Assembly (NCBI GenBank): GCA_030272585.1
Contig: BSYQ01000003.1
Location: 3,968,001-4,032,000, forward strand
Source: Bryopsis sp. KO-2023
Lineage: Eukaryota > Chlorophyta > Ulvophyceae > Bryopsidales > Bryopsidaceae
DNA length: 64,000 nt
Direction: 5' to 3'
The translations under genes were made by a program, and so were the position numbers. Every line of letters starts with the position of its first letter. The stretch's first letter is position 1. Below, piece by piece: positions 1 to 33,387 of this stretch. The notes beneath the pieces were generated by a model. It was not told where the DNA came from. It worked only from the letters and a program-made list of their open reading frames with translations, and did not search any database.

Positions 1-949
1 GGATATCTGTGTTGGTGAATATTCGTGTAATCGATATAAATTCAAAAGAACCTGTCGTTATGTTGAAACTCATACAACAGTGACTTTCAAAAAGGTGAAA
101 AACGAACAATATGGATAGTTTTTATCCTTTCTACTGTCGTACAATCACGATACCAACTTTGTGGGTACAGCAAACCCAAATTGTTCGTTTGCCACTGCTT
201 CAAACATTTCGGGAATGAGCGCTGTGACATTTTTGAGATTCACAACCAAAATCTTGAGCGCCGACCATACGAAAAAGTAATAAATCAAACTAGCAACTTG
301 TGGTTTTATTAATTTGCGAGTTTATTGAGGGTCCACTCAGCCGCACATTGTTTCAGCAGCGCTGCAAGCTGGGGGGGGGGGGGGTTGTATCCAGTTGCGG
401 AGACGGTTTGTTCTGGGTAATTCTCGACACCATCTCAACTCGGCCTGGGGAACATAAGACGGCGGCTTTTGTCGTGGAAAATAAATAAGTAAATAGTAGT
501 TTACTTCGACTTTGCGTGTGTCTCCCAAAAGTCCTGAAGGTGCTCCAAGTTTTACAAGGCTCAACACGCACACCGCGAAATGTTTCCTCCACTGTCGCTT
601 GATATTTTTACCGCGGACGTCACGTAACACGGCCTTAGCTATATAGCTATTGGTTTCCCAGGCGTTCGCAAAAAACGTTGCTCAACGAGTCATTTTTGAA
701 TGCGACATGTGTTTTCTGGGGAGTAGCTGCGGCCACGGAACTGAAAGGGGCCGTTGCAAAAAGTCGGACGTATTCTTTCCTTCTTCGAGTTCACAGCAAT
801 CACGGAGTTTGATGAGAGCCACTCGAGAAGCTGGGGTTGGTTTGCTTCGCGGTTTGGATCGAAAACGCGAGGTTGCAACGAAATGTGATCAACTGGGTTT
901 GGATTTTATTTGTTAGTGGAAACTTTTGGAGGTTTTCATCGCAAAAAAT
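1..949. other. No gene seen
   Basis: I see no coding exon that joins to anything. The stretch has a 12-base G run near 370 and only short open frames without recognisable composition. Confidence 0.5.
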
Positions 950-951
950 TC

Positions 952-1228
952 GCTCACTTGCAACCCACTTGCAACCCACTTGTCGCTGTCACTTGCATGC
1001 AAATAATACAGCAAATGGCCACTTGCGGGCAAGTGGATTGCAAGTGACACGGCCACTTGCAGAGTCATTTGCGTGCAAGTGGTTGGTAACGCCCACAAGC
1101 ACTTGCTGTATCACTTGCATGCAAGTGGCTCCCACTTGTTGTATCGCTTGCGTGCAAGTGGGTGCTCACTTGCTGTATCACTTGCGTGCAAGCGGGTACT
1201 CACTTGCCGGCCCGCTTGCTCGCAAGTG
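952..1228. repeat. Palindrome array, left copy
   Basis: About seven copies of a roughly 16-bp palindrome of the form CACTTGC-NN-GCAAGTG, with single-base variants, start near 990, 1020, 1066, 1112, 1145, 1179 and 1213. Spacing is 30-46 bp. Further half-sites (CACTTGC, GCAAGTG) lie between them. Each unit is self-complementary, so the array could fold into a row of hairpins or cruciforms. It is related to the array at 2478-2790. Confidence 0.85.
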
Positions 1229-2477: not shown

Positions 2478-2790
2478 CACTTGTCGACAAGTGGGTGTGC
2501 AAGTGGCTCCACTTGTCGGCAAGTGGGTGTGCAAATGATTCCACTTGCCGGCATGTGGACCTGCAAGTGTTGCACTTGCCGGCATGTGGGTCTGCAAGTG
2601 TTGCGCTTGCATGCAAGTGGGTCTGCAAGTGTTGCGCTTGCATGCAAGTGGGGCTGCAAATGACCCACTTGCAAGCAAGCGGGTGTGCAAGTGGTGTGCT
2701 TGCGTGCAAGTGGGGCTGCAAGTGACTCACTTGTATGCAAGTGGAAAACAAGTGACACTTGCAACCTCACTTGCACGCAAGCACACAGAA
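2478..2790. repeat. Palindrome array, right copy (31-bp period)
   Basis: Nine 16-bp palindromes of the CACTTG(C/T)..GCAAGTG type start at 2478, 2510, 2542, 2573, 2604, 2635, 2666, 2697 and 2728. The period is 31-32 bp, so this is a true tandem array. The linkers carry an extra GCAAGTG half-site, often as GGGTCTGCAAGTG. A looser tail with more half-sites runs to about 2790. The left array at 952-1228 uses the same palindrome with a longer, irregular period. Confidence 0.9.
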
Positions 2791-2993
2791 TTTTTTGCGA
2801 TGTTTCGTCTGATTGTCAAACATTGGTTCGTTCTTTATCACGTATGGTTGCTACCCTTCAAACTCTTCCTACGTCGATAGTTGTGGAAAGGGCTTGGCAA
2901 AAGCTGTCTCTTTCTTTACACCGTTCGCAAGCTTATGCTTTGCTTGAACGGTCATCGTTTTCTAGTGATTCGATTTCTTTTGAGAGGGGGTGA
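2785..2993 (+). pseudogene. Possible hAT transposase C-terminal remnant
   Basis: The open frame ends with a block that reads L..MVATLQTLPTSIVVERA, followed by a serine/leucine-rich segment with H-R-S. The order 'A..L.T.PTS....ER...LS..H..R' resembles the hAT-family C-terminal dimerisation region (usually 'ip.ss...ER.fS'). Upstream, the frame runs into the palindrome array and holds no catalytic domain, so if the likeness is real this is a fragment. Nothing else of a transposase is visible. Chance similarity is quite possible. Confidence 0.25.
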
Positions 2994-3685
2994 TATCGTT
3001 TTTCTTTTTTGAATGACAAATCATTTGTTTGTAGATACGGACTTGTGTAATAAAGTTCACAGCAACTGAGTGATAGGGAGGTAAGAGTTGTTTTCAGTGA
3101 GCTTCAGACTGTGTGGCGGGGCGGTTTGGTGGCGGCTGACTGGACTAGGTGTGTGAAAGAAGGGCAGCTTGTGGACGTCAAATGAGGACGTGTCCGAGAA
3201 TGGTCTGAGAATGTGTGGCCATTTTGGTGAGAACATTTTGTGAACTTTGACGCCAGTTTCCAAGCCCGCTCGTTCTGGCTGACTTAACCTTGCTCGAGCT
3301 ACTAGCCCAACCACACTTCCTTGAGCACTCAGTCGAACCTTTTCAGCGAGGTCTTTCTGAAGTGGTCGCTTCTCCTTTCGCGCGAAGAAAGGTTTGGAGG
3401 TGTATACCATGCAGATCTTAAACCCCGCAGCTGTCCGTCAGGTATAGAGTGTTGTGTCATGTCTTGAGCAAACTGTGGTGTGTTTACAGTCTGTGTTTTT
3501 TTTGGTGGAAGTTTACTGTGGAGAGTCCTTGCTTGTAATCATATGAACCAAATTTTGCTGGCTCATAGAATCGATGATAAAATTTGATCGGTCCCAAACT
3601 TGCAGCCTTTTTGTATAGATCAAACTATTCAGAAATAAGATTAGATAAAGGAATGTGGCTTTGAAAATTTGATGATAGGATTCGT
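2994..3685. other. No gene seen
   Basis: An AATAAA at about 3047 could end a transcript from the fragment upstream. No exon with splice signals was found. Confidence 0.4.
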
Positions 3686-8292: not shown

Positions 8293-10803
8293 CTAGCGGT
8301 GGGGTGAGGTTCTGCGAGCCCTTCGTCGAGTTCGCGGTTTTTGCCCATCCATTGCTCCCAGAGTGAATCCACCCCCACCTCCACCCGGACCTCCACCTCC
8401 ACCTCCAAATGCTGGTGCAGCTTGACCAAAGGCTGGTGTCACTTGGGCGTTTGGTGCAGCTCCAAAGCCAGGTGAAGCCACATTGAAGGCTGGAGGGGTG
8501 GGAGAATTCTGATTCTGCCCTCCGAACCCACCAAACTGAGGGATATTTCCTGAGAAACTGTTGTTGTTCAAGCTACCACCTTGACCAAATGATGGTGCTG
8601 ATGGTGCAGCAGGTGCCCCTGAAAACGAAATTGGAACAAGAAGTTGACAAGACCTCATACAAATTTCTGCCACAGCGACTGCAGCTTTTCCTAAGCTAAC
8701 TCAGCGAGGTTCAAAAACATGCAAACCATGATTCTGGAGACATCTCGCTACCTGGTACGCTGAACACCAGTTGCTGGCTTGAGAACGGGTTGGGATCAGC
8801 AGCTGCCGGTGCTGGAGCTGCACCACCAATGCCCTGAGACCCGAAGCCAAATGGATTTGCAGGTGACTGGGCCGTTGCTCCAAAACTACCGGACTGGGCT
8901 GGTGCTCCAAAACTACCGGACTGCGCTGGTGCTCCAAAACTACCGGACTGGAGGGGTGCACCTCCTGAAAGCCATGAATTCATATAGCTCTTATCGTCTT
9001 CCCAAACAAGCCGCTGCAGAGTATGGAGCCAGGGAAAAAGACGGGGCAGAATTCAAGTCAACATCACCCAGATGGATGGACTCAATACCTTTCCGGCAAG
9101 GGTGGGGTCGAAAGACAGCACCAGAGCTGATCAAAAACATTAGTAGACCCTCATCTTCCTTGTCCCCGAGCGACTGGGGAAGGAAAAGAACCCGGGGAGG
9201 GGGGGAGGGGTTGCATGATAATAAAACAAAAACTATTCACTTTTTTCCATCAGTGTATCGACATGGGGGTTGACAGATGGTCGATATAAACGTCAAAATA
9301 TTCGAGGGGCTCTCGTGGAGGTCAGCACCTCCAATATCCACCTAGAGTAAAGCAATTAGATCAATACAGGTCTTTTTCACGACATGTCAAGAAAAACAGA
9401 GAATAATCACGCCAGTCTGACCTCCTTAAGGCTTGCAAGCAAGAAAAGATGAATTTGCAAAAGAAAAACTGTGAAGTACCTTGGGAGTCTTGACTTCGAT
9501 TCCTTCTGGCGACGATTCTCTTCCTGTCTGGTCGCTGGACTGCAGGGGAAAACATGTTTCCGATTGTGGGCTGGGACTGAGCATCGACAGGAGTCGATCC
9601 AATGTTTCCAAACATAGGCACGGTGGCTTGGGTTGCATCCGAGCCGCCAAATACGAAAGATGAAGATGGTGCAGCTGTCGTTGGGATACTCGTTGCTGCC
9701 AGGTCCCTCTTTCCGCCTGTAGTCTCTTTCTTCGACCCTCCAGCAGGTTTATCTGAGTTTGATCCAAAAGTGATGGTGGTAGGGATGATCGGTGCTGAAT
9801 CGCTTGCTGGCGGCTGTGTGGTTTGAGGGGGAACGAACGGTGCCGGTGGGGCTCTTGGGGGGGAAACCACCTCCTCATCACACCAGTCCCAGTCGATTTT
9901 TGGCCTCGATGGCTTCATGGCTTCGAAATGTTCGCTTTTATCACGCATGTCGAACTTGGGCAGCGGATGTTCGATGCCTTTGACAAGGCCCTTCCCAAAC
10001 ACCTTTTCAGGGTTCCAGATGCAATCCTCCCACCGATCCTTAGTCCAGCCAGAGGCTCTGTCTAATTCCGAATGTCTGGCCTTCTTTTGTGGTGGCAGTT
10101 CAACTTCGTCATTGTCCTGGACTTCCCAGCCACCTCGTTTTTTCAGGTTCTTGAGCAATTCTTGGCACTTGGGGGACAGCTTCGACAGTTCTCCTTCAAC
10201 TTCCTCGATCACCGTTTCAACTGCTGGTCCAGCTTTCCCCCTCAAGTCATCCTCATCCTCCCGCCCTTGCCTTGGTTTCCTAACCGATCCCCGGCCTTTG
10301 GCCCCCTCCTTTATCCCTCGGTCCTCCTTTCCTTTTTTCAAAGCCGCTGAGGACAGCCTGGCATGCCTCAACCCCAGATTCTCGACTTTCTTCTTCTTGT
10401 TGGTCGATTTGCTGGTCCTGCTCTTGTTCAAGGGGGCTCTTGGATTGAACACTCCTCGCAGGAGAGGAAAGGCACGCTTGCCTCCTGTCTTCTTTTTGAC
10501 GACCGCGGCCGCCTCCTCCTCCTCCTCTGGCTCCCGCGACGCCTTCCTTTTTTTTCTCTTCTTGGCCTTTTCTTCAGGTCCAGAGGGAGCATCTGCCGTC
10601 TTGGGCGTCGTGGGGCCGTCTGCACCATCCAGAGCCTCAGCCATCCTACGGCTCTCTTCCTCCAGGCGCTCCTTCCATGTCGGACCCTTGCGTTCGGGTC
10701 GAGGCTTCGCCTTCACGAAATCAGGCAAGTCCGACATGATTCTTCGGTTGGGATCTGGCGGGGGCGGAGGGCCAGTCCAAAACGTGCGCATCCAGCCAAA
10801 CAT
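8293..10803 (-). CDS. FG-repeat nucleoporin (Nup1/Nup153/POM121-like)
   Basis: Predicted nuclear pore protein of 620 aa from three exons: 9480-10803, 8752-8964 and 8293-8618. All junctions are GT-AG and in phase. The N-terminus is a short Trp/Phe-rich segment (MFGWMRTFWTG) before a proline run. A long lysine/arginine-rich, disordered region with acidic patches follows (roughly residues 30-230), then a Trp-rich block (about 260-320). The C-terminal third carries FG, SFG, FGFG and PAFG repeats, a Gly run, and a basic tail ending RTRRRARRTSPHR. FG repeats bind transport receptors in the pore. A basic C-terminal tail after FG repeats is seen in Nup1/POM121-type proteins. The N-terminal aromatic segment could be a membrane-binding or pore-anchoring helix, which is inference. 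No zinc finger or Ran-binding domain is visible. A CAG acceptor just upstream of the ATG suggests a 5' UTR intron. Confidence 0.8.
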
Positions 10804-11250: not shown

Positions 11251-11496
11251 TGTTACTCCGACCCTGTTACTCCGACTCCGTCCATGTCTGACATCGAGAC
11301 AGCTCCCATGTCTGACAGTCGGCGCGCGCCGGTATACCTCGCGGTCGCTCGACGCGCGCCGGTTCGCGCCGGTCTACCCCGCGCTTGTTTAGCCCACTCG
11401 CTTGGCGCGCGCCGGTCGCGCTAACCCTAAACCCTAAACCCTAAACCCAACCCCCCCCTTTTTTTGAGTCGGAGTAACAGGGGTCGGAGTAATGGG
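11249..11496. mobile_element. Small TIR element containing telomeric repeats
   Basis: The left end at 11251-11280 reads TGTTACTCCGACCCTGTTAC and continues to TCCGACTCCG. The right end at 11466-11492 is its near-exact reverse complement (GAGTCGGAGTAACAGGGG, then TCGGAGTAA). Inside are three copies of a GCGCGCCGGT-type GC palindrome (near 11319, 11351 and 11404), a CCCTAAA array at 11421-11448, and C and T runs. There is no open frame for a transposase, so it would be a non-autonomous, MITE-like insert. No clear target-site duplication was found. The GC content is far above the surroundings. Confidence 0.6.
11421..11448. repeat. Interstitial CCCTAAA telomeric repeats
   Basis: About four units of CCCTAAA (TTTAGGG on the other strand) sit inside the inverted-repeat element, flanked by genes on both sides. 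They are not a chromosome end. They may come from telomere capture or break repair, or be a normal part of the element. Confidence 0.9.
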
Positions 11497-12173: not shown

Positions 12174-13766
12174 CTAAGAGACTAAGGACAGCAGCGTGTA
12201 ATTCGTGTCGAACACATCGAACTGATAGCAATTTCGATTGAAGTCCACCGAGTCTTCCCCCGCCAGCAACGCACAGCATTCCACCACTTTCTGCTGAGCT
12301 ATTTTCCTCAGCGGTTTCTCGTGTTGCACCTCTTTCCAATCCACCCATTCGATGCCTCGTACATGCTCCGAAAAAACGTCCGACGCATCCTGAAAGGTGT
12401 AAGCCACCCTCACCCCCGGATCCACCACTATATCGTCGTAACCCAACCTTATGAAATCCTGACACATCAGGAAACATTCCGACCCCGAGCATTCCCCTTC
12501 CAAATGCCCTCGTGATCTGATTCCGGCAAAAAACGGTTTCGCATCCAGAACCACCATGCCGTTCCAGCATGCATCCACAGGGAAAGGCAGCCCCCTCTTT
12601 ATCCTATCTTTCCCGTATTCATCCTGCACGTACGGAGCATTGTTCAGAAAGTGTAGACCCATCGCATCGTGCGAAACCCACTTGTCGTAAAACACCAACG
12701 GCAGCTCCCCCAGGACCGCATCCCTCTTCCCTAAAAATCGCCTCCACTGTTTCAGGATCCAGTAATTCCGGGAAATCCCGTCCGCCACGCTTTGATAAAA
12801 CCCCATGTTTTTTACCAGATCTTTCACCATGATCTCCCTCTGCTCCCCCTTGGTCAATCCACCCATGGCCCTGATGAAATCCAACCCGCACACGATGTCC
12901 CCGTCGTTCCTCAGCAATCGCAAAACATCTTGCGGGCAAAAGAATATATCGTTCAGAAAAATGACCTTTGATGCGATCCAATCGGACGATGCTTTCCACT
13001 CCACCAACGGCTGCAGAGCCTCATTTCTGACTTTGGCCAGAAACTCGATTCTCTCCTCCTCGGGTTTTCGCACCATTCCCCCCATTATGACCCTGTTCCT
13101 GATTTCGAAGAAATCAAGCAATTCACGAAAGAGGGCCAGCCATTGGGGGGTCGAATCCAGACTCCCGCTTTCGTAAATAGACACCGCTACCCTCCCCTCA
13201 GGAAACCTGCTGATCGTCCTCAGCAGCTGATATATCAAATTTGGCATGATGGCCTCGTTGTTGTACAGATTCAAGGCAAAGAAAAACGTCCCTGTTGGCT
13301 GGGCCCCCTCCAGCAAATCCTTGTCTCTCTGACAGGGTAATATATCCCCTTTTCGACTGATTTGGGAAAGAATATCGCGAAGCTGGGAATGCAACCCCCA
13401 CGGACTGTCGACCTCAGTCCGATTCCCAGAAAAATTGCCGTCGTCCTCTGCTTCCATAGATCCGATCACCCGCTTCAGCAGCCGAATTCCAGCGGGTTTG
13501 GACGTCCCTGACTCCGCCCGCAACACCCTAGAAGCTAGCACGAAGAAGTCAGCGGACGAGGATGAGTGCACACCCTCTCCAGGGCCAGGCAAACTCACTG
13601 GAGTGGACATCAGCACGGTGATCGACCAGAGGCACGCCAACAAGACGCCCAAGGGAGCCGCCTTCCCGCGAAGCAAGGAGAAAAGCGGCATCAAAATTCT
13701 GCCCTTGTTTTTCTGACAAGTTGTTCTCCGACTCCTTCGCCTTCCCCCAGCAAAGGCGTCGTCCAT
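12174..13766 (-). CDS. GT69/CAP59-type glycosyltransferase, type II membrane protein
   Basis: Intronless 530-aa gene. An Arg/Lys-rich cytoplasmic start is followed by one hydrophobic segment (about residues 33-55, LGVLLACLWSITVLM), as in Golgi type II glycosyltransferases. The luminal part matches the family of cryptococcal capsule proteins CAP59/CMT1, alpha-1,3-mannosyltransferases of GT69. Matching points are a TFFFALNLYNNE opening, VSIYESGSLDSTPQWL, the KVIFLNDIFFCPQDVL block with its likely metal and sugar-nucleotide binding Asp, VCGLDF, and CWNGMVVLDAKPF near the end. The predicted role is transfer of mannose or a related sugar to a glycan in the Golgi. It is divergent from the CCDC90-like gene, with only 153 bp between start codons. 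Family membership is quite certain. Donor, acceptor and linkage cannot be read from the sequence. Confidence 0.85.
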   Translation of the reverse strand: MDDAFAGGRRRSRRTTCQKNKGRILMPLFSLLRGKAAPLGVLLACLWSITVLMSTPVSLPGPGEGVHSSSSADFFVLASRVLRAESGTSKPAGIRLLKRVIGSMEAEDDGNFSGNRTEVDSPWGLHSQLRDILSQISRKGDILPCQRDKDLLEGAQPTGTFFFALNLYNNEAIMPNLIYQLLRTISRFPEGRVAVSIYESGSLDSTPQWLALFRELLDFFEIRNRVIMGGMVRKPEEERIEFLAKVRNEALQPLVEWKASSDWIASKVIFLNDIFFCPQDVLRLLRNDGDIVCGLDFIRAMGGLTKGEQREIMVKDLVKNMGFYQSVADGISRNYWILKQWRRFLGKRDAVLGELPLVFYDKWVSHDAMGLHFLNNAPYVQDEYGKDRIKRGLPFPVDACWNGMVVLDAKPFFAGIRSRGHLEGECSGSECFLMCQDFIRLGYDDIVVDPGVRVAYTFQDASDVFSEHVRGIEWVDWKEVQHEKPLRKIAQQKVVECCALLAGEDSVDFNRNCYQFDVFDTNYTLLSLVS

Positions 13767-18721: not shown

Positions 18722-21285
18722 TCAGATCGGCTCTGCTAGCAGCCTCTTGATATTGCTGGTCAAGTGAATCAAGGCAGAGTTGAGTGAATCGATGGTGACA
18801 TCGTTGCTCGTCTCCGCAACCTCCACAGTGGGTTGAATCTTCTTTTGTTTCTTCGGCTCCATCATCTCATGCACAAACGGGGGACAGTCACCCGAATCCG
18901 TATCTGGCCATTGATCCTTGAGAATCACACCATACCAAAAGGCAGTCAATCTCTCAGAAAAAAAAAAGTTCAAAGTTCAAAGTTCATTCGTTTCTGATGA
19001 GAAAAGCTCCCAAAAGCGAGATCATTTTTCCAATGAAAATCTGTGTTCCAACCAAGGTTGTCTGAAACGCACGCACCCAAGATGTATTGAAGCCCAGAAT
19101 TACCATCTGGCGCACAGTCTCGCAGAGTATGTACACCTCCACACGGGCTGAGACGATGCAATAGCGGATGCCCATGTCCTTGCTCAGTGGCATGTCGACG
19201 GTGGTTGAATCAGAAGTCATCTTGGTGCCATCGTAATGATCCCACGAAGAAAGAAGAGCGCCGTCTTCTTGATACACCTGACCCTTCTTCCCTTCGTTCG
19301 AAACTCGAAGAAGCATTTTTCCTTCTTTGTCTTGAACGAACCCATTTCCATTTGGCTCGAAACTTGCCGCCACCAGAGAGCTCCCCCTGTGTGCTGTGCT
19401 GCACAGTGGTATTAAGGTTTGCAGTGGTTCGCTGTGGGCATTTGCGCTTGGAGGGAGTTGCTAATATGAAAAATTATCACCGAGCAGGCGGCTTCAAGTT
19501 GGGAACACATACTTGCAAAGAGACGGTATTGAGGCTTTTCTTGCATCGTCTCGACGTCCACCGACACAGCGATTTGACCGTTGGGCCATTTCACCTCTGC
19601 AGACCCCTCCCTGCGAATGGCGACTGCCACCATATTTTGACTGTTTGCAAGGCTTCCCGCATACTTCTGCTGGTATACAATCTCTTTTTCAAGGCTGTCG
19701 GATCGGGAAACGACTGGTTTCGGTTTGGCGGAACGGCGGGGCTTGGGCGGCAGGGAAGCTGTAGAAAACTTGTTTTGAGCCGACAGAAAGCTTTGAAGAT
19801 TTTTTGAAATCGAAAACACTCTCGTGAGAGATAATAGAGGAGGCAATAGAGTACCAGGTTTCAACTTCAGTGAAGACAAGCCGTCAATAACATCTTGGAA
19901 GGTTGCCGTGCTTGATGTCTCGAGACATCTGGCGGGGAGTTTGTTGAGATCTGTGAATCTGCTCGAGCGGGAGCTCACAGACGCAACCTTCGACGATACT
20001 GCGCTGATCAAGCTTGCAGTCGAAGCTCCATCGAATGACGACCGCAGGCTCGGGCAGACGGATTCTGTACCTCCACGAGTGGAGCCCAGTGAATGGGACT
20101 TCGGCAAAGCGCATTTGGGAGGCCTTCTGCGCGGAACTCCACCGTTCACGGATCTCCGTCGACCGCAGCGAGGGACCAAAGGCGTGCCGTCCAGTATCTT
20201 TACAAAAGAGAGTGCTTAAATCCTCCCTGAAGTCGATTCAGCAGGTATTGCAGAGTGGAAATGATAAATGTACCCACTTTTGCGTGTGGGAGGGCATCCG
20301 CCACCTGGTCTCTGTAGTGGGAAACGGATGCGATAGCTGTCGCAGGGTTGTGCCGCAAGACAATTTCAACCAGAGACGTCAGACGGCCAAGGCCATACAA
20401 GTTCTTGAAGGAATCGATTCGGTTGTGATCTGCGTGCAACTCCTGGGGACAGAAAATTGACCCTCAGGCCAGGCAAGGAACACAGTCTTTGGATTGCAGG
20501 CCCAGTGCTTACTTTGAGCCGATTGCAGAATGACAGCGGCTGCAGGCTTTTGAGATTGTTGAAGGAGAGCTTCAAAGTCTCCAAACCTTTGCACAGTGCA
20601 CAAAAAAGAGCTCCTGAAGTTCAAACACAAACTGCACGAAAAGAGAGGTCTCGCATTCACACTGGTACAAACCTTCCAAGGCCGACAGTGGGTTTATAGA
20701 ATCCAGACTGTTGTGGCTCAAATTGAGAGTCTGGATGGTTTCCACCTGCAACCAACCGATCAAATAAGTGCTTTCGATTTTCACCACAAAGCTTGCTGTG
20801 CTTCGTATCTATGGGCAGTGCATTCCTTTACCTTTTGAAGCGCATGTATTGCCGTCAGACGATTGAACTACGAGCAAGGAAGCAAACCGATACATGTCAA
20901 TCCGTTAAGAAACCTGCAGGAGGCTTTTTGTGGCTTGAATCACAAAATCGCACCGCCAGATTCAAGACTCGCAGGCTGCTCAGTGCTGGGAGGCAAACTC
21001 CAAGATTCTCAATGTTCTGGGTTGGGAACACACAACCGCGTTCACAAGAAGTCGACCTGCAAGCTCGTAATTATCCTCTTCTAAATGTGTGTGTGTCGCG
21101 CCACCATGGCGCAACAGAAAGTTGACTTTCGTGTTCATGTGCTTTCGAGTGTGGGTTCGCGGCTTCGCGGAACCGTTGTTGTGTTGCCACATTTGCATCG
21201 TTGTTCCTAGTCCCCCTACTTTGTTGCTTAGATTGAGTTCTTCGATATCTTCAGCATCCGACCAAAACGATGCATGGTCGATTAC
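18722..21285 (-). CDS. Leucine-rich-repeat protein with FAM194-like C-terminal region (5' end open)
   Basis: Nine exons join in phase: 21220-21285, 20954-21016, 20832-20867, 20673-20745, 20513-20586, 20278-20442, 19509-20197, 19077-19386 and 18722-18952. They give about 569 aa without the start. The first six exons code short LRRs ([56 protein letters not shown]). The cap after the last repeat reads AKILDGTPL, typical of SDS22/ciliary-type LRR proteins. A Ser-rich linker follows, then a beta-rich block ([14 protein letters not shown] ... [17 protein letters not shown]) that resembles the FAM194/ERICH6 domain. No ATG lies in frame in the first exon, so an upstream exon must overlap the leader of Rpt4. 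The donor at 19508 (GTGTTC) is weak but is the only phase-compatible choice. LRR proteins with this cap often work in cilia or as phosphatase partners, which is inference. Confidence 0.7.
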
Positions 21286-21674
21286 CTGCGACAACACATC
21301 TTGAGAACAAGACGGCGGAAAATCTCTCAGGGCGTGCAGGGAACGAATCGAATGACGATGTTCCTACCGTACCCCCCAGTCGACGCTCATCCAGTGAAGC
21401 CTTTGGGTCGATTGTGGACGGAGTTCGGTTGACGCTTATCCTTGCAGTATGCAGACGTCAGGATTCGATTGAGGTTTTGATCCCAAGCGATGCCATTAAA
21501 CAAAAACCGAAAATTTTCGGGAGTGAAGAAAGTCGTACGGTAAACCCGCTTATCAAACGCACTCGTTTTGTCTACTTGTTCTGCTTTCTCGTCTTGTTAT
21601 ATTTTCGAGTGGCGCTTCCGTTTCGAACACGAACCAAGAGCAAGCCAGGTTTCAGCGCGCTCAGCAGGGGAATA

Positions 21675-22880
21675 ATGTCTGACGGAGACGATATCGAGAA
21701 GCAAGACGCGGTGAAGGATTACCGTCAAAAACTCTTGAGGCACAAGGAGGTAGATGCGAAAGTTCGCCAGCTTCGCACGGAAATGCGGGATCTCCAACGG
21801 GACTATGACAAGTCAGAAGATGAACTGCGGGCGCTGCAAAGCGTTGGGCAGATTATCGGGGAAGTCCTTCGGCAACTGGACGACGAAAGGTATATCGTCA
21901 AGGCCAGTTCGGGGCCTCGGTACGTCGTGGGGGTGCGGAGCAAGCTGGAGAAAACCAAACTGACGTCGGGAACTCGTGTGGCGTTGGACATGACAACGCT
22001 CACAATTATGCGGGCTTTGCCTCGGGAGGTGGATCCTGTGGTGTTCAACATGGTTAGCGAGGACCCTGGGCAGGTGGACTATTCTTCGATCGGTGGGCTT
22101 TCGGACCAGATCCGAGAATTGAGGGAAAGCATCGAGCTGCCTCTTTTGAACCCGGAATTGTTCTTGAGAGTGGGGATCAACCCTCCTAAGGGGGTGTTGT
22201 TATATGGGCCCCCCGGAACTGGGAAAACTCTTCTGGCTAGAGCGGTGGCTTCTAATATCGATGCCAGCTTTTTGAAAGTAGTTTCGAGTGCGATCGTGGA
22301 TAAGTACATTGGGGAAAGCGCCAGGATTATCAGGGAGATGTTTGGTTATGCCAGAGAGCACGAGCCTTGCGTAATTTTCATGGACGAAATCGATGCGATC
22401 GGAGGTAGGAGGTTCAGCGAGGGTACCTCTGCGGATCGAGAAATTCAAAGAACCCTCATGGAGCTTCTCAGTCAGTTGGACGGGTTCGAAAAAGTGGGGA
22501 AAGTGAAAATGATCATGGCGACGAATCGACCGGATGTGTTGGATCCCGCTTTGATGAGGCCAGGGAGACTGGACCGGAAAATCGAAATTCCTTTGCCCAA
22601 CGAACAAGCGAGGATGGAGATTCTCAAGATCCATGCATCCCCGTTGACCAAGGACGGGGAAATCGACTACGAAGCGGTGGTAAAACTGGCGGAAAGCTTC
22701 AACGGGGCCGATTTGAGAAACATCTGTACAGAGGCAGGGATGTTCGCCATCCGGGACGATCGAGACTACGTGGTGCACGAGGATTTCATGAAAGCTGTCA
22801 GAAAACTCAACGATGCCAAAAAGCTGGAATCCAGTCTGACATACGACACATCGTTCGGAGATGGTGGCAAAAAGTCCTGA
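21675..22880 (+). CDS. RPT4: 26S proteasome regulatory ATPase Rpt4 (PSMC6)
   Basis: Intronless 401-aa AAA ATPase of the 19S base, which unfolds ubiquitinated proteins and feeds them to the 20S core. The order is an N-terminal coiled coil (about residues 15-60), an OB domain ([17 protein letters not shown]), and the AAA module. Walker A is GPPGTGKT at 178-185 and Walker B is [11 protein letters not shown] with Asp237-Glu238. The second region of homology is present ([17 protein letters not shown], with both Arg fingers), as is sensor 2. The Pro of the NPELF...INPPKG block and the overall length fit Rpt4 rather than the other five Rpt subunits. The C-terminus (DGGKKS) lacks the HbYX motif, as expected for Rpt4. 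The chosen ATG starts MSDGDD. The frame stays open upstream to 21270 with further ATGs, but that part has no family likeness. Confidence 0.97.
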
Positions 22881-31953: not shown

Positions 31954-33387
31954 ATGAAAATCCTGGACACCCTGGTCGCCTTTGGCTCGTTGGTGGTGCT
32001 GTTTCTCGCGGGAGGGCTGTTTTTGAACCTCAATCTCTATCGTGATTTGGAGCAGAAGGATCCCACCGTGCAGGCGCTCTTCTCCTTGGTGTTCGCCTTC
32101 TCATGCAACCTCCTGGAAATTCTGCTCTTCGAAATCACGGGGGTGATGGAGCCCACCACCCGAATTCTCACCTGGAAAATGGACATGTGGTGCTTGCTGG
32201 CCTTGCTGCTGGTGGTGCTACCCCTGTACCACAGCTTCAATATCATCATCGGACTCAAGAAAGTGGGACCTGTGAAATCTCTAGCTGCTGCAGCCGTCTT
32301 GGAGGGAGCTTTCTTGTACACCTTCTGGCGAGTGGGGACCTACTTGCCTGGAGTTCCATCAGGCCAAGGGATGTTTCGATTGGAGCAAGCTGTGAGTCGA
32401 CTGGGGGTGGTGGGGACCTGGTTGATCGCCATCCTTTCGGGATATGGTACGGTGGACTTGCCGTACTCCTACCTATCTCTGTTCATTCGGCCCGTGGAAA
32501 AAGCTGAAATCCAGGCGATGGAGGATCAATATCGGAGAGCTCTGGACACGTCCCTAGAAAAGAAAAAACGAATAGCGTTGGTGCAGAAGGACATCCAAGC
32601 GGGGGGCCGATTCGGAGGGGGTAAATCCAAGCCGACATCTTTCTTCGGTCGAATGGTTTCTGCAGTGATGCAACCTACCCATGCCTCCACTCCGGAGCAG
32701 ACCATTCATGCTCTGCAGATCGAGGTGGATGCTCTGGACACCCTCGGGCGGACCCTGTTCGTTGAAGTCATGGAAATGAAAAAGGAGAGGAAACGGGCGT
32801 TGATGAGCAGAACTCTGCTGGGGCACGTTCGCAATTTCTTGGGTTACTTGATGAGTGCTTACTGCATCTACAGAATGTATGCTTCCTTGAAATCGTTGGT
32901 GTTCGGGGAGGATTACTCATCGGACCCCGTCAGCAAATTCCTTGGGTTTGGGCTGCGGACGTTTTCCCATGGATCTATAAACATCGACGTGGAAGTCACC
33001 GCACAGTACGTAACGCTGGTATTTATCGGCAGCGTTTGTGCAATGTCCCTGAGGGGTTTTCTGAAAAACATGAGGAGATTCTTCTCAGCTCTCTCTGGGG
33101 CAGGAAACATTTCCATCCTGGTGTTGCTGCTGACTGAATTGACGGGCATGTATGCGATTTCGTCGCTCCTGCTGATTCGGCAGAAGCTGCCGGTGAAGTA
33201 CCGGTCCAATCTGGCAGAGGTTCTGGGAACGGAGCTGGAATTTCACTTTTTTCACAGGCACTTCAATTCTTTGTTTCTGGTGAGTGCCCTGTTGACGATT
33301 TTGTTGCTGTACGGGCAGTATCAGAGCAATGCAGGGGACTCGGGGGATATTTTGCCAACGAGAATGGCTGTAAAACAATCTTTGTAG
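31954..33387 (+). CDS. GPHR: Golgi pH regulator (GPHR/GPR89/GTG)
   Basis: Intronless 477-aa multipass membrane protein. It has the layout of the family: five N-terminal hydrophobic segments within residues 1-180, a long soluble coiled-coil loop (about 185-285, with EQTIHALQIEVDALDTLG), then four C-terminal segments. Family signatures include FAFSCNLLEILLFEI, LPYSYLSLFIRPV after G-Y-G-T-V-D, HVRNFLGYLMSAYCIYRMY, and the ELTGMYAISSLLLIRQKLP block. In animals GPHR is an anion channel that acidifies the Golgi; plant GTG1/2 have been linked to growth and hormone responses. Human GPR89 is about 455 aa, so this is full length. The ATG gives MKILDTLVAFGSLVVL, a fitting first membrane helix. Confidence 0.93.
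   Translation: MKILDTLVAFGSLVVLFLAGGLFLNLNLYRDLEQKDPTVQALFSLVFAFSCNLLEILLFEITGVMEPTTRILTWKMDMWCLLALLLVVLPLYHSFNIIIGLKKVGPVKSLAAAAVLEGAFLYTFWRVGTYLPGVPSGQGMFRLEQAVSRLGVVGTWLIAILSGYGTVDLPYSYLSLFIRPVEKAEIQAMEDQYRRALDTSLEKKKRIALVQKDIQAGGRFGGGKSKPTSFFGRMVSAVMQPTHASTPEQTIHALQIEVDALDTLGRTLFVEVMEMKKERKRALMSRTLLGHVRNFLGYLMSAYCIYRMYASLKSLVFGEDYSSDPVSKFLGFGLRTFSHGSINIDVEVTAQYVTLVFIGSVCAMSLRGFLKNMRRFFSALSGAGNISILVLLLTELTGMYAISSLLLIRQKLPVKYRSNLAEVLGTELEFHFFHRHFNSLFLVSALLTILLLYGQYQSNAGDSGDILPTRMAVKQSL

Follow-up and report, generated by a model that had tools for sequence, protein, structure and literature searches.

Palindrome arrays and a candidate transposon in the window

The analyzed window, a 64,000-nucleotide stretch of contig BSYQ01000003.1 from the genome of Bryopsis sp. 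KO-2023, contains three host-type genes, which code for a CAP59-like mannosyltransferase (window positions 12174-13766, minus strand), a proteasomal ATPase (21270-22880, plus strand), and a member of the Golgi pH regulator/ABA GPCR family (31954-33387, plus strand). A short run of AACCCTA repeats, a telomere-type motif, occupies an internal position at 11423-11448. Closer to the left edge of the window lies the palindrome array that is the subject of this work. A sequence-only reading had described it as nine CACTTG..CAAGTG palindromes with a period of 31-32 bp and with half-sites in the linkers; both observations hold, the former with unit starts from 2478 to 2728 and the latter upon half-site mapping. 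With up to 3 changes allowed, ten units fit the consensus CACTTGCNNGCAAGTG, spanning positions 2478-2783 and starting at 2478, 2510, 2542, 2573, 2604, 2635, 2666, 2697, 2728, and 2768, so that the tenth unit begins 40 bp past the start of the ninth. When the entire 64-kb window was searched for CACTTGNNNNCAAGTG with at most one mismatch, 14 matches were found, compared with a mean of 0.40 and a maximum of 3 in 100 shuffles. Six of these 14 matches fall at 1020-1228, within another array built of this motif (955-1228) that had not been noticed in the sequence-only reading and that forms the left end of the element described below.

The two arrays are enclosed by a perfect 15-bp terminal inverted repeat (TIR), represented by CATCGCAAAAAATTC at 937-951 (plus strand) and its complement GAATTTTTTGCGATG at 2788-2802 (minus strand). 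The TIRs are flanked in turn by the dinucleotide TT (935-936 and 2803-2804), the target-site duplication. The resulting 1,866-bp element (937-2802), a putative non-autonomous Plavaka-type DNA transposon, consists of the left subterminal array at 955-1228 (plus strand), with 7 palindromic units at 990-1228, the inner ones 33-34 bp apart, and additional single half-sites; an interior without exact half-sites (1229-2477); and the right subterminal array of 10 palindromic units in the mirror orientation (2478-2783, minus strand). To approximately element position 880, the left portion of the interior shows 77% identity to the left portion of the 10.1-kb coding copy described below. Besides the TIRs and the TT/TT flanks, the delineation of this element is supported by 13 other places in the genome that carry both termini and by the rejoined flanks. 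When the flanks are rejoined with a single TT, they align straight across the join with sequences elsewhere in the genome, such as those on contigs C11, C12 (twice), and C6, at 96-97% identity. A 26-base piece spanning the join is found exactly at five genome places and with 1 or 2 mismatches at four more, and these empty sites contain five T residues, as predicted by a 2-bp duplication. The borders of the element and the length of its target-site duplication are therefore fixed. The flanking DNA (677-936 and 2805-3064) is itself repeated, with at least 44 matches in the genome (40 of the 151 candidates were scored).

Copies of the element in the genome

In the 91-Mb genome assembly (28 contigs), both termini of this family are found at 14 places. 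Six copies, including the one in the window, are ∼1.8-1.9 kb long, five are 2.5-3.0 kb, and the remaining three are 10.1, 17.3, and 24.7 kb; the five other short copies are 95-97% identical to the window copy. Array units are present at both ends of all 14 copies. Since the same architecture recurs at 14 places with different flanks, an assembly artefact is an unlikely source of the array. Matching 2-bp flanks (TT, GA, GT, CT, CA, TT, AA, TT, TG, CT, AT, and TC) surround 12 of the 14 copies, compared with a mean of 1.6 and a maximum of 9 for shuffled flanks; the two exceptions are the copy at C8:3431326 (CG/TC) and the 10.1-kb coding copy (TG/CG).

The genome-wide search for the termini returned 66 places, compared with 3 and 3 in the reversed-pattern control. 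Among the 31 exact matches, 27 represent ends of the 14 copies and four are single-ended (C5:2563706, C6:4785981, C9:5104538, and C11:2841224). Among the 35 matches with one mismatch, one is the other end of the 10.1-kb copy, and another (C7:622033) adjoins a fragment. The 2.5-kb copy located at C2:7197552 aligns with the 10.1-kb copy in collinear blocks (positions 1-1030, 2041-2738, and 9846-10097 of the latter, 84-94% identity) separated by unmatched stretches, which suggests a deletion derivative. The arrays of the 17.3-kb copy are interrupted. This copy also holds a 1,509-aa frame of a Ty3/gypsy polyprotein (C8:4350700-4355226, minus strand; L066:1-4527), truncated where the examined sequence stops.

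The coding copy and its transposase

Plavaka transposases are relatives of the CACTA and RAG1 transposases. In the 10.1-kb copy (C2:395957-406053), transposase frames are present in several pieces, and the Plavaka domain PF18759 is recognized there with a score of 46.4 bits, above the curated cut-off of 26.3 (L032:2372-3217); in the genome search, the same domain scored 91.3 bits at C2:397359-398036. Inspection by eye reveals the motifs YSDKT, ADNPE, CVQC, HKEIRH, and FERHHKH, with the counterparts YSDKT, GDDPE or ADDPE, CEEC or CEQC, and ETDHK in two other Plavaka groups of the same genome. These motifs appear to fit the D, D, C(2)C, H(3-4)H, E pattern that Kojima 2025 gives for Plavaka and its relatives (PMC12730594). 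Two plausible introns, GTAAGG..CCCTAG and GTAAGA..CACAG, also seen by eye, join the last three transposase frames. Within the intron that precedes the final exon of the transposase (approximately C2:398800-398900), a long inverted repeat was likewise seen by eye, a mirror image of the exon end and donor site.

The frame upstream of the transposase contains a C2H2-like motif that falls under the Pfam cut-off (E value of 0.06), and the first Met of this frame past the array (C2:396500) is located 123 bp inside of the innermost palindrome. No near-identical transposase was found among the scored candidates elsewhere in the genome; the next matches had identities of 35% and 30% or were less convincing. 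The window copy, which is devoid of a transposase gene, can be tied to this coding copy because the two agree in their termini and arrays and share 76-89% identity at both ends.

A 39-aa stretch encoded within the 10.1-kb copy (C2:404916-405032, in the L013 frame 1207-1584) reads like the N terminus of histone H3. No match to it was seen in the examined parts of the other 13 copies, and the similarity suggests a captured fragment of a host gene.

Array architecture and sequence constraint

Exact copies of the half-site CACTTGC are confined to the ends of the elements: in 11 of the 14 copies, there are 366 of them in 7,480 bp of ends, taken as 340 bp each, while the interiors, which were counted from 400 bp inside the left terminus and 420 bp inside the right one and total 15,478 bp, contain none. 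The most frequent unit in the inward direction from each terminus is a triad that consists of a half-site, 5 bp, a second half-site, 2 bp, and an inverted half-site, repeated with a period of ∼34 bp on the left side of the element and 31 bp on the right. Counted across all 14 copies, triads with a spacer of 4 or 5 bp point inward 66 times at the left ends and 100 times at the right ends, compared with 14 and 7 times, respectively, in the opposite sense. Because both ends, read inward, repeat one and the same triad, the left and right arrays are mirror images of each other, as would be expected if a single protein assembled on both ends of the element.

The number of units varies among the copies. 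The right array comprises 8, 9, 9, 10, 11, and 12 units in the six short copies and, with the 17.3- and 24.7-kb copies set aside, from 7 to 13 units in the remaining 12. At the right end, the outermost two units begin 20 and 60 bp away from the terminus in all 14 copies; at the left end, the outermost unit is found at base 54 in 13 copies and at base 65 in one.

Sequence divergence was compared in five of the 14 copies, over 300 bp at the left end of each. Between the window copy and three diverged copies, 3.7-6.2% of positions mismatch in the half-sites and 20.7-22.6% between them, a 3- to 6-fold difference; in the adjoining interior, mismatch is 16.5% (one pair only). The weakest of the diverged pairs differs by 5.0% in the half-sites and 13.2% in the linkers (2.6-fold), and a pair of nearly identical short copies displays no contrast (0.6% and 0.8%). 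Since their mismatch stays below that of the linkers, the half-sites represent the conserved part of the arrays, in a comparison slightly biased by the choice of half-sites by similarity. Gene conversion or unequal exchange among the units may also keep them alike.

Other Plavaka groups

A second family is represented by a Plavaka transposase on contig C12 (26-41% identity over the matched parts). Upstream of it lies an array of CGCTTGCGCGCAAGCG palindromes that ends, read inward, in CGTCGGAAATTTGTTGCGTG; by eye, this array adjoins a sequence similar to a retrotransposon integrase. The half-site in this family is CGCTTGC, and the triad consists of a half-site, 4 bp, a half-site, 2 bp, and an inverted half-site. 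Counted from the terminus, the outermost palindrome begins at base 21, versus base 20 for the family of the window copy. Genome-wide, there are 20 exact occurrences of CGCTTGCNNGCAAGCG, at ten places, and the 14-base palindrome search produced 34 matches, compared with 16 in the control. At three of the ten places (C2:1616049, C2:4467095, and C12:1997574), a Plavaka match is found within 2 kb of the array, and two of these three matches contain stop codons. The search for the termini of this family, with 3 mismatches allowed, had a high background (52 and 45 matches versus 23 and 29 in the control), and only termini with 0 or 1 mismatch were used for pairing. Such termini pair in the inverted orientation at four places, on C12 (8.0 kb), C13 (2.9 kb), C3 (3.4 kb), and C4 (2.4 kb), with exact palindromes at one end only of each pair.

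A further Plavaka group comprises five copies (on C1, C2, C6 twice, and C9). No palindrome array was seen in the DNA examined for this group, which possibly stops short of the ends of these elements. A 112-bp tandem repeat in approximately four copies lies beside the transposase frame (L075:872-1431 and its copies). Yet another Plavaka transposase, at 5.507 Mb of C9, has inverted repeats of the TGCACAG/CTGTGCA type upstream of it (C9:5507401-5508277; L068:2212-3088). These repeats, which show no clear layout, were the only ones of this kind in the DNA examined there, where the CACTTGC-type layout was not seen; they are possibly the end array of that Plavaka family.

It is conceivable, at somewhat below even odds, that the related Plavaka families share a common end grammar, with triads that have 4- to 5-bp spacers and an outermost palindrome ∼20 bp from the terminus, and differ in their half-sites (CACTTGC and CGCTTGC). 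The array might then serve as a family-specific recognition code that coevolves with a DNA-binding part of the transposase, and such a code would keep each transposase on its own copies.

Comparison with known transposons

Kojima 2025 (PMC12730594) describes PlavakaB elements as having 2- or 3-bp target duplications and the termini CATCA..TGATG. The Bryopsis family resembles them in the PF18759 domain, the C(2)C motif, the H(3-4)H motif, and the last E of its coding copy, in its 2-bp duplication (matching flanks in 12 of the 14 copies and five T residues in the empty sites), and in the termini CATC..GATG. It differs from them in having CATCG..CGATG instead of CATCA..TGATG, so that 4 of the 5 terminal letters agree. 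Outside fungi, Plavaka elements have been reported in a green alga and in Amoebidium (PMC12633428, PMC11244446). The word “subterminal” does not appear in the main text of Kojima 2025 (PMC12730594), and its combination with “Plavaka” was not found in any single paper of the literature searched, which took in a minority of subscription papers. This hints that subterminal arrays of Plavaka elements might not have been described so far.

The closest parallel comes from the CACTA/En-Spm elements, in which the TNPA protein binds subterminal repeats; at the two borders of the soybean element Tgmt*, 2 and 12 palindromes are possible (PMC2613891). As in the Bryopsis family, short direct and inverted motifs form arrays near either end of these elements, in subterminal position, and the motif varies by family (PMC2613891). 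A further likeness would be that their deletion derivatives can be moved in trans if the ends are kept (PMC2613891). However, the termini of the window family are CATCGC..GCGATG rather than CACTA and its duplication is 2 bp rather than 3, so membership in the CACTA group is ruled out; furthermore, its transposase matches Plavaka, and a separate TNPA-like gene was not identified. In the best reading of this analogy, the arrays in the window would work like the subterminal repeats of CACTA/En-Spm elements, through predicted protein binding.

Probable role of the arrays

Taken together, the data favor, with a probability of approximately 0.8, the interpretation of the 937-2802 element as a non-autonomous Plavaka-type transposon, whose palindromes at 2478-2783 and 990-1228 are subterminal arrays that probably bind a protein. 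The array at 2478-2783 is thus real and largely explained rather than exotic. The earlier suggestion of a binding array for a dimeric protein comes close to this reading, in that paired half-sites would be gripped by a protein, although such binding is a prediction from sequence. An element-encoded protein could bind the half-sites as dimers or oligomers, perhaps via its N-terminal zinc-finger-like segment. The bound arrays would mark both ends of the element, pair them, and permit cleavage at the CATCGC termini, and a transposase like the one encoded by the coding copy would recognize the non-autonomous element in the window. Because the array of the coding copy sits just upstream of the presumed start codon, binding may also regulate its gene.

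That last arrangement lends some credence to a different possibility, whereby the arrays are bound not by the transposase but by a host transcription factor of the bHLH-like type that drives or silences the element. Both CACTTG and CAAGTG fit the E-box pattern CANNTG, the half-sites are constrained, and the innermost palindrome of the coding copy ends 123 bp before the presumed ATG. However, the arrays are mirrored at both ends, in non-coding copies too, and the second Plavaka family has the same layout built of CGCTTGC, which is no E-box, so that binding by a host factor is unlikely.

The symmetry of the units also raises the question of hairpins. Foldback elements have long inverted termini built of repeats, and the array had earlier been considered as a potential terminal array of such an element, in which the units would work through hairpins or cruciforms and base pairing would be under selection. 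As single-stranded DNA, the array indeed folds far better than its shuffled versions (z = -12, with none of 100 shuffles equal), but good folding is expected of any array of inverted half-sites. The sequence-only reading further held that paired changes preserve the palindrome in several units, which did not withstand counting. In the right array, 12 of the 70 arm pairs are changed from the consensus, 11 of them on one side and a single one, CACTTGTCGACAAGTG, complementarily on both; shuffling the right arms among the units gives a mean of 1.0 complementary pairs, and 71% of the shuffles reach 1. Among the 48 distinct units of the 14 copies, 50 of 336 pairs are changed, 44 of them one-sided, 3 two-sided and non-pairing, and 3 complementary, versus a shuffle mean of 1.6 (P of ∼0.21); with all 228 units counted, 8 of 193 changed pairs are complementary. 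As complementary changes show no excess over shuffles, the symmetry is best read as two inverted half-sites, not a conserved hairpin. The element shares with foldback elements the repeats of inverted symmetry at both ends, and the view of the array as the end of a mobile element stands, but its TIRs are just 15 bp long and the arrays are subterminal, so that a foldback mechanism is very improbable.

Exact CACTTGCNNGCAAGTG palindromes occur in the genome 79 times, 70 of them in the 14 copies, 6 beside the single-ended termini, and 3 more in the 24.7-kb copy (the interiors of the two longest copies were covered except for 21,157 and 1,910 bases), and the genome search found no motif arrays far from any CATCGC terminus. 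Despite the variable number of units, a trait also of satellites, the notion of a simple satellite, or of the previously proposed replication or segregation site, that sits beside a transposon by chance can be rejected as highly improbable, because all 79 palindromes belong to the transposon family or its fragments, and the outermost units keep fixed distances from the termini.

With the interpretation as subterminal transposon arrays, an odd satellite-like array becomes a defined part of a transposon, and Plavaka elements gain a concrete architecture of their ends that lends itself to testing, including a predicted recognition half-site of 7 bp. As the half-sites of two families in the same genome differ in one letter, they would permit a direct test of the coevolution of transposases with their end arrays.
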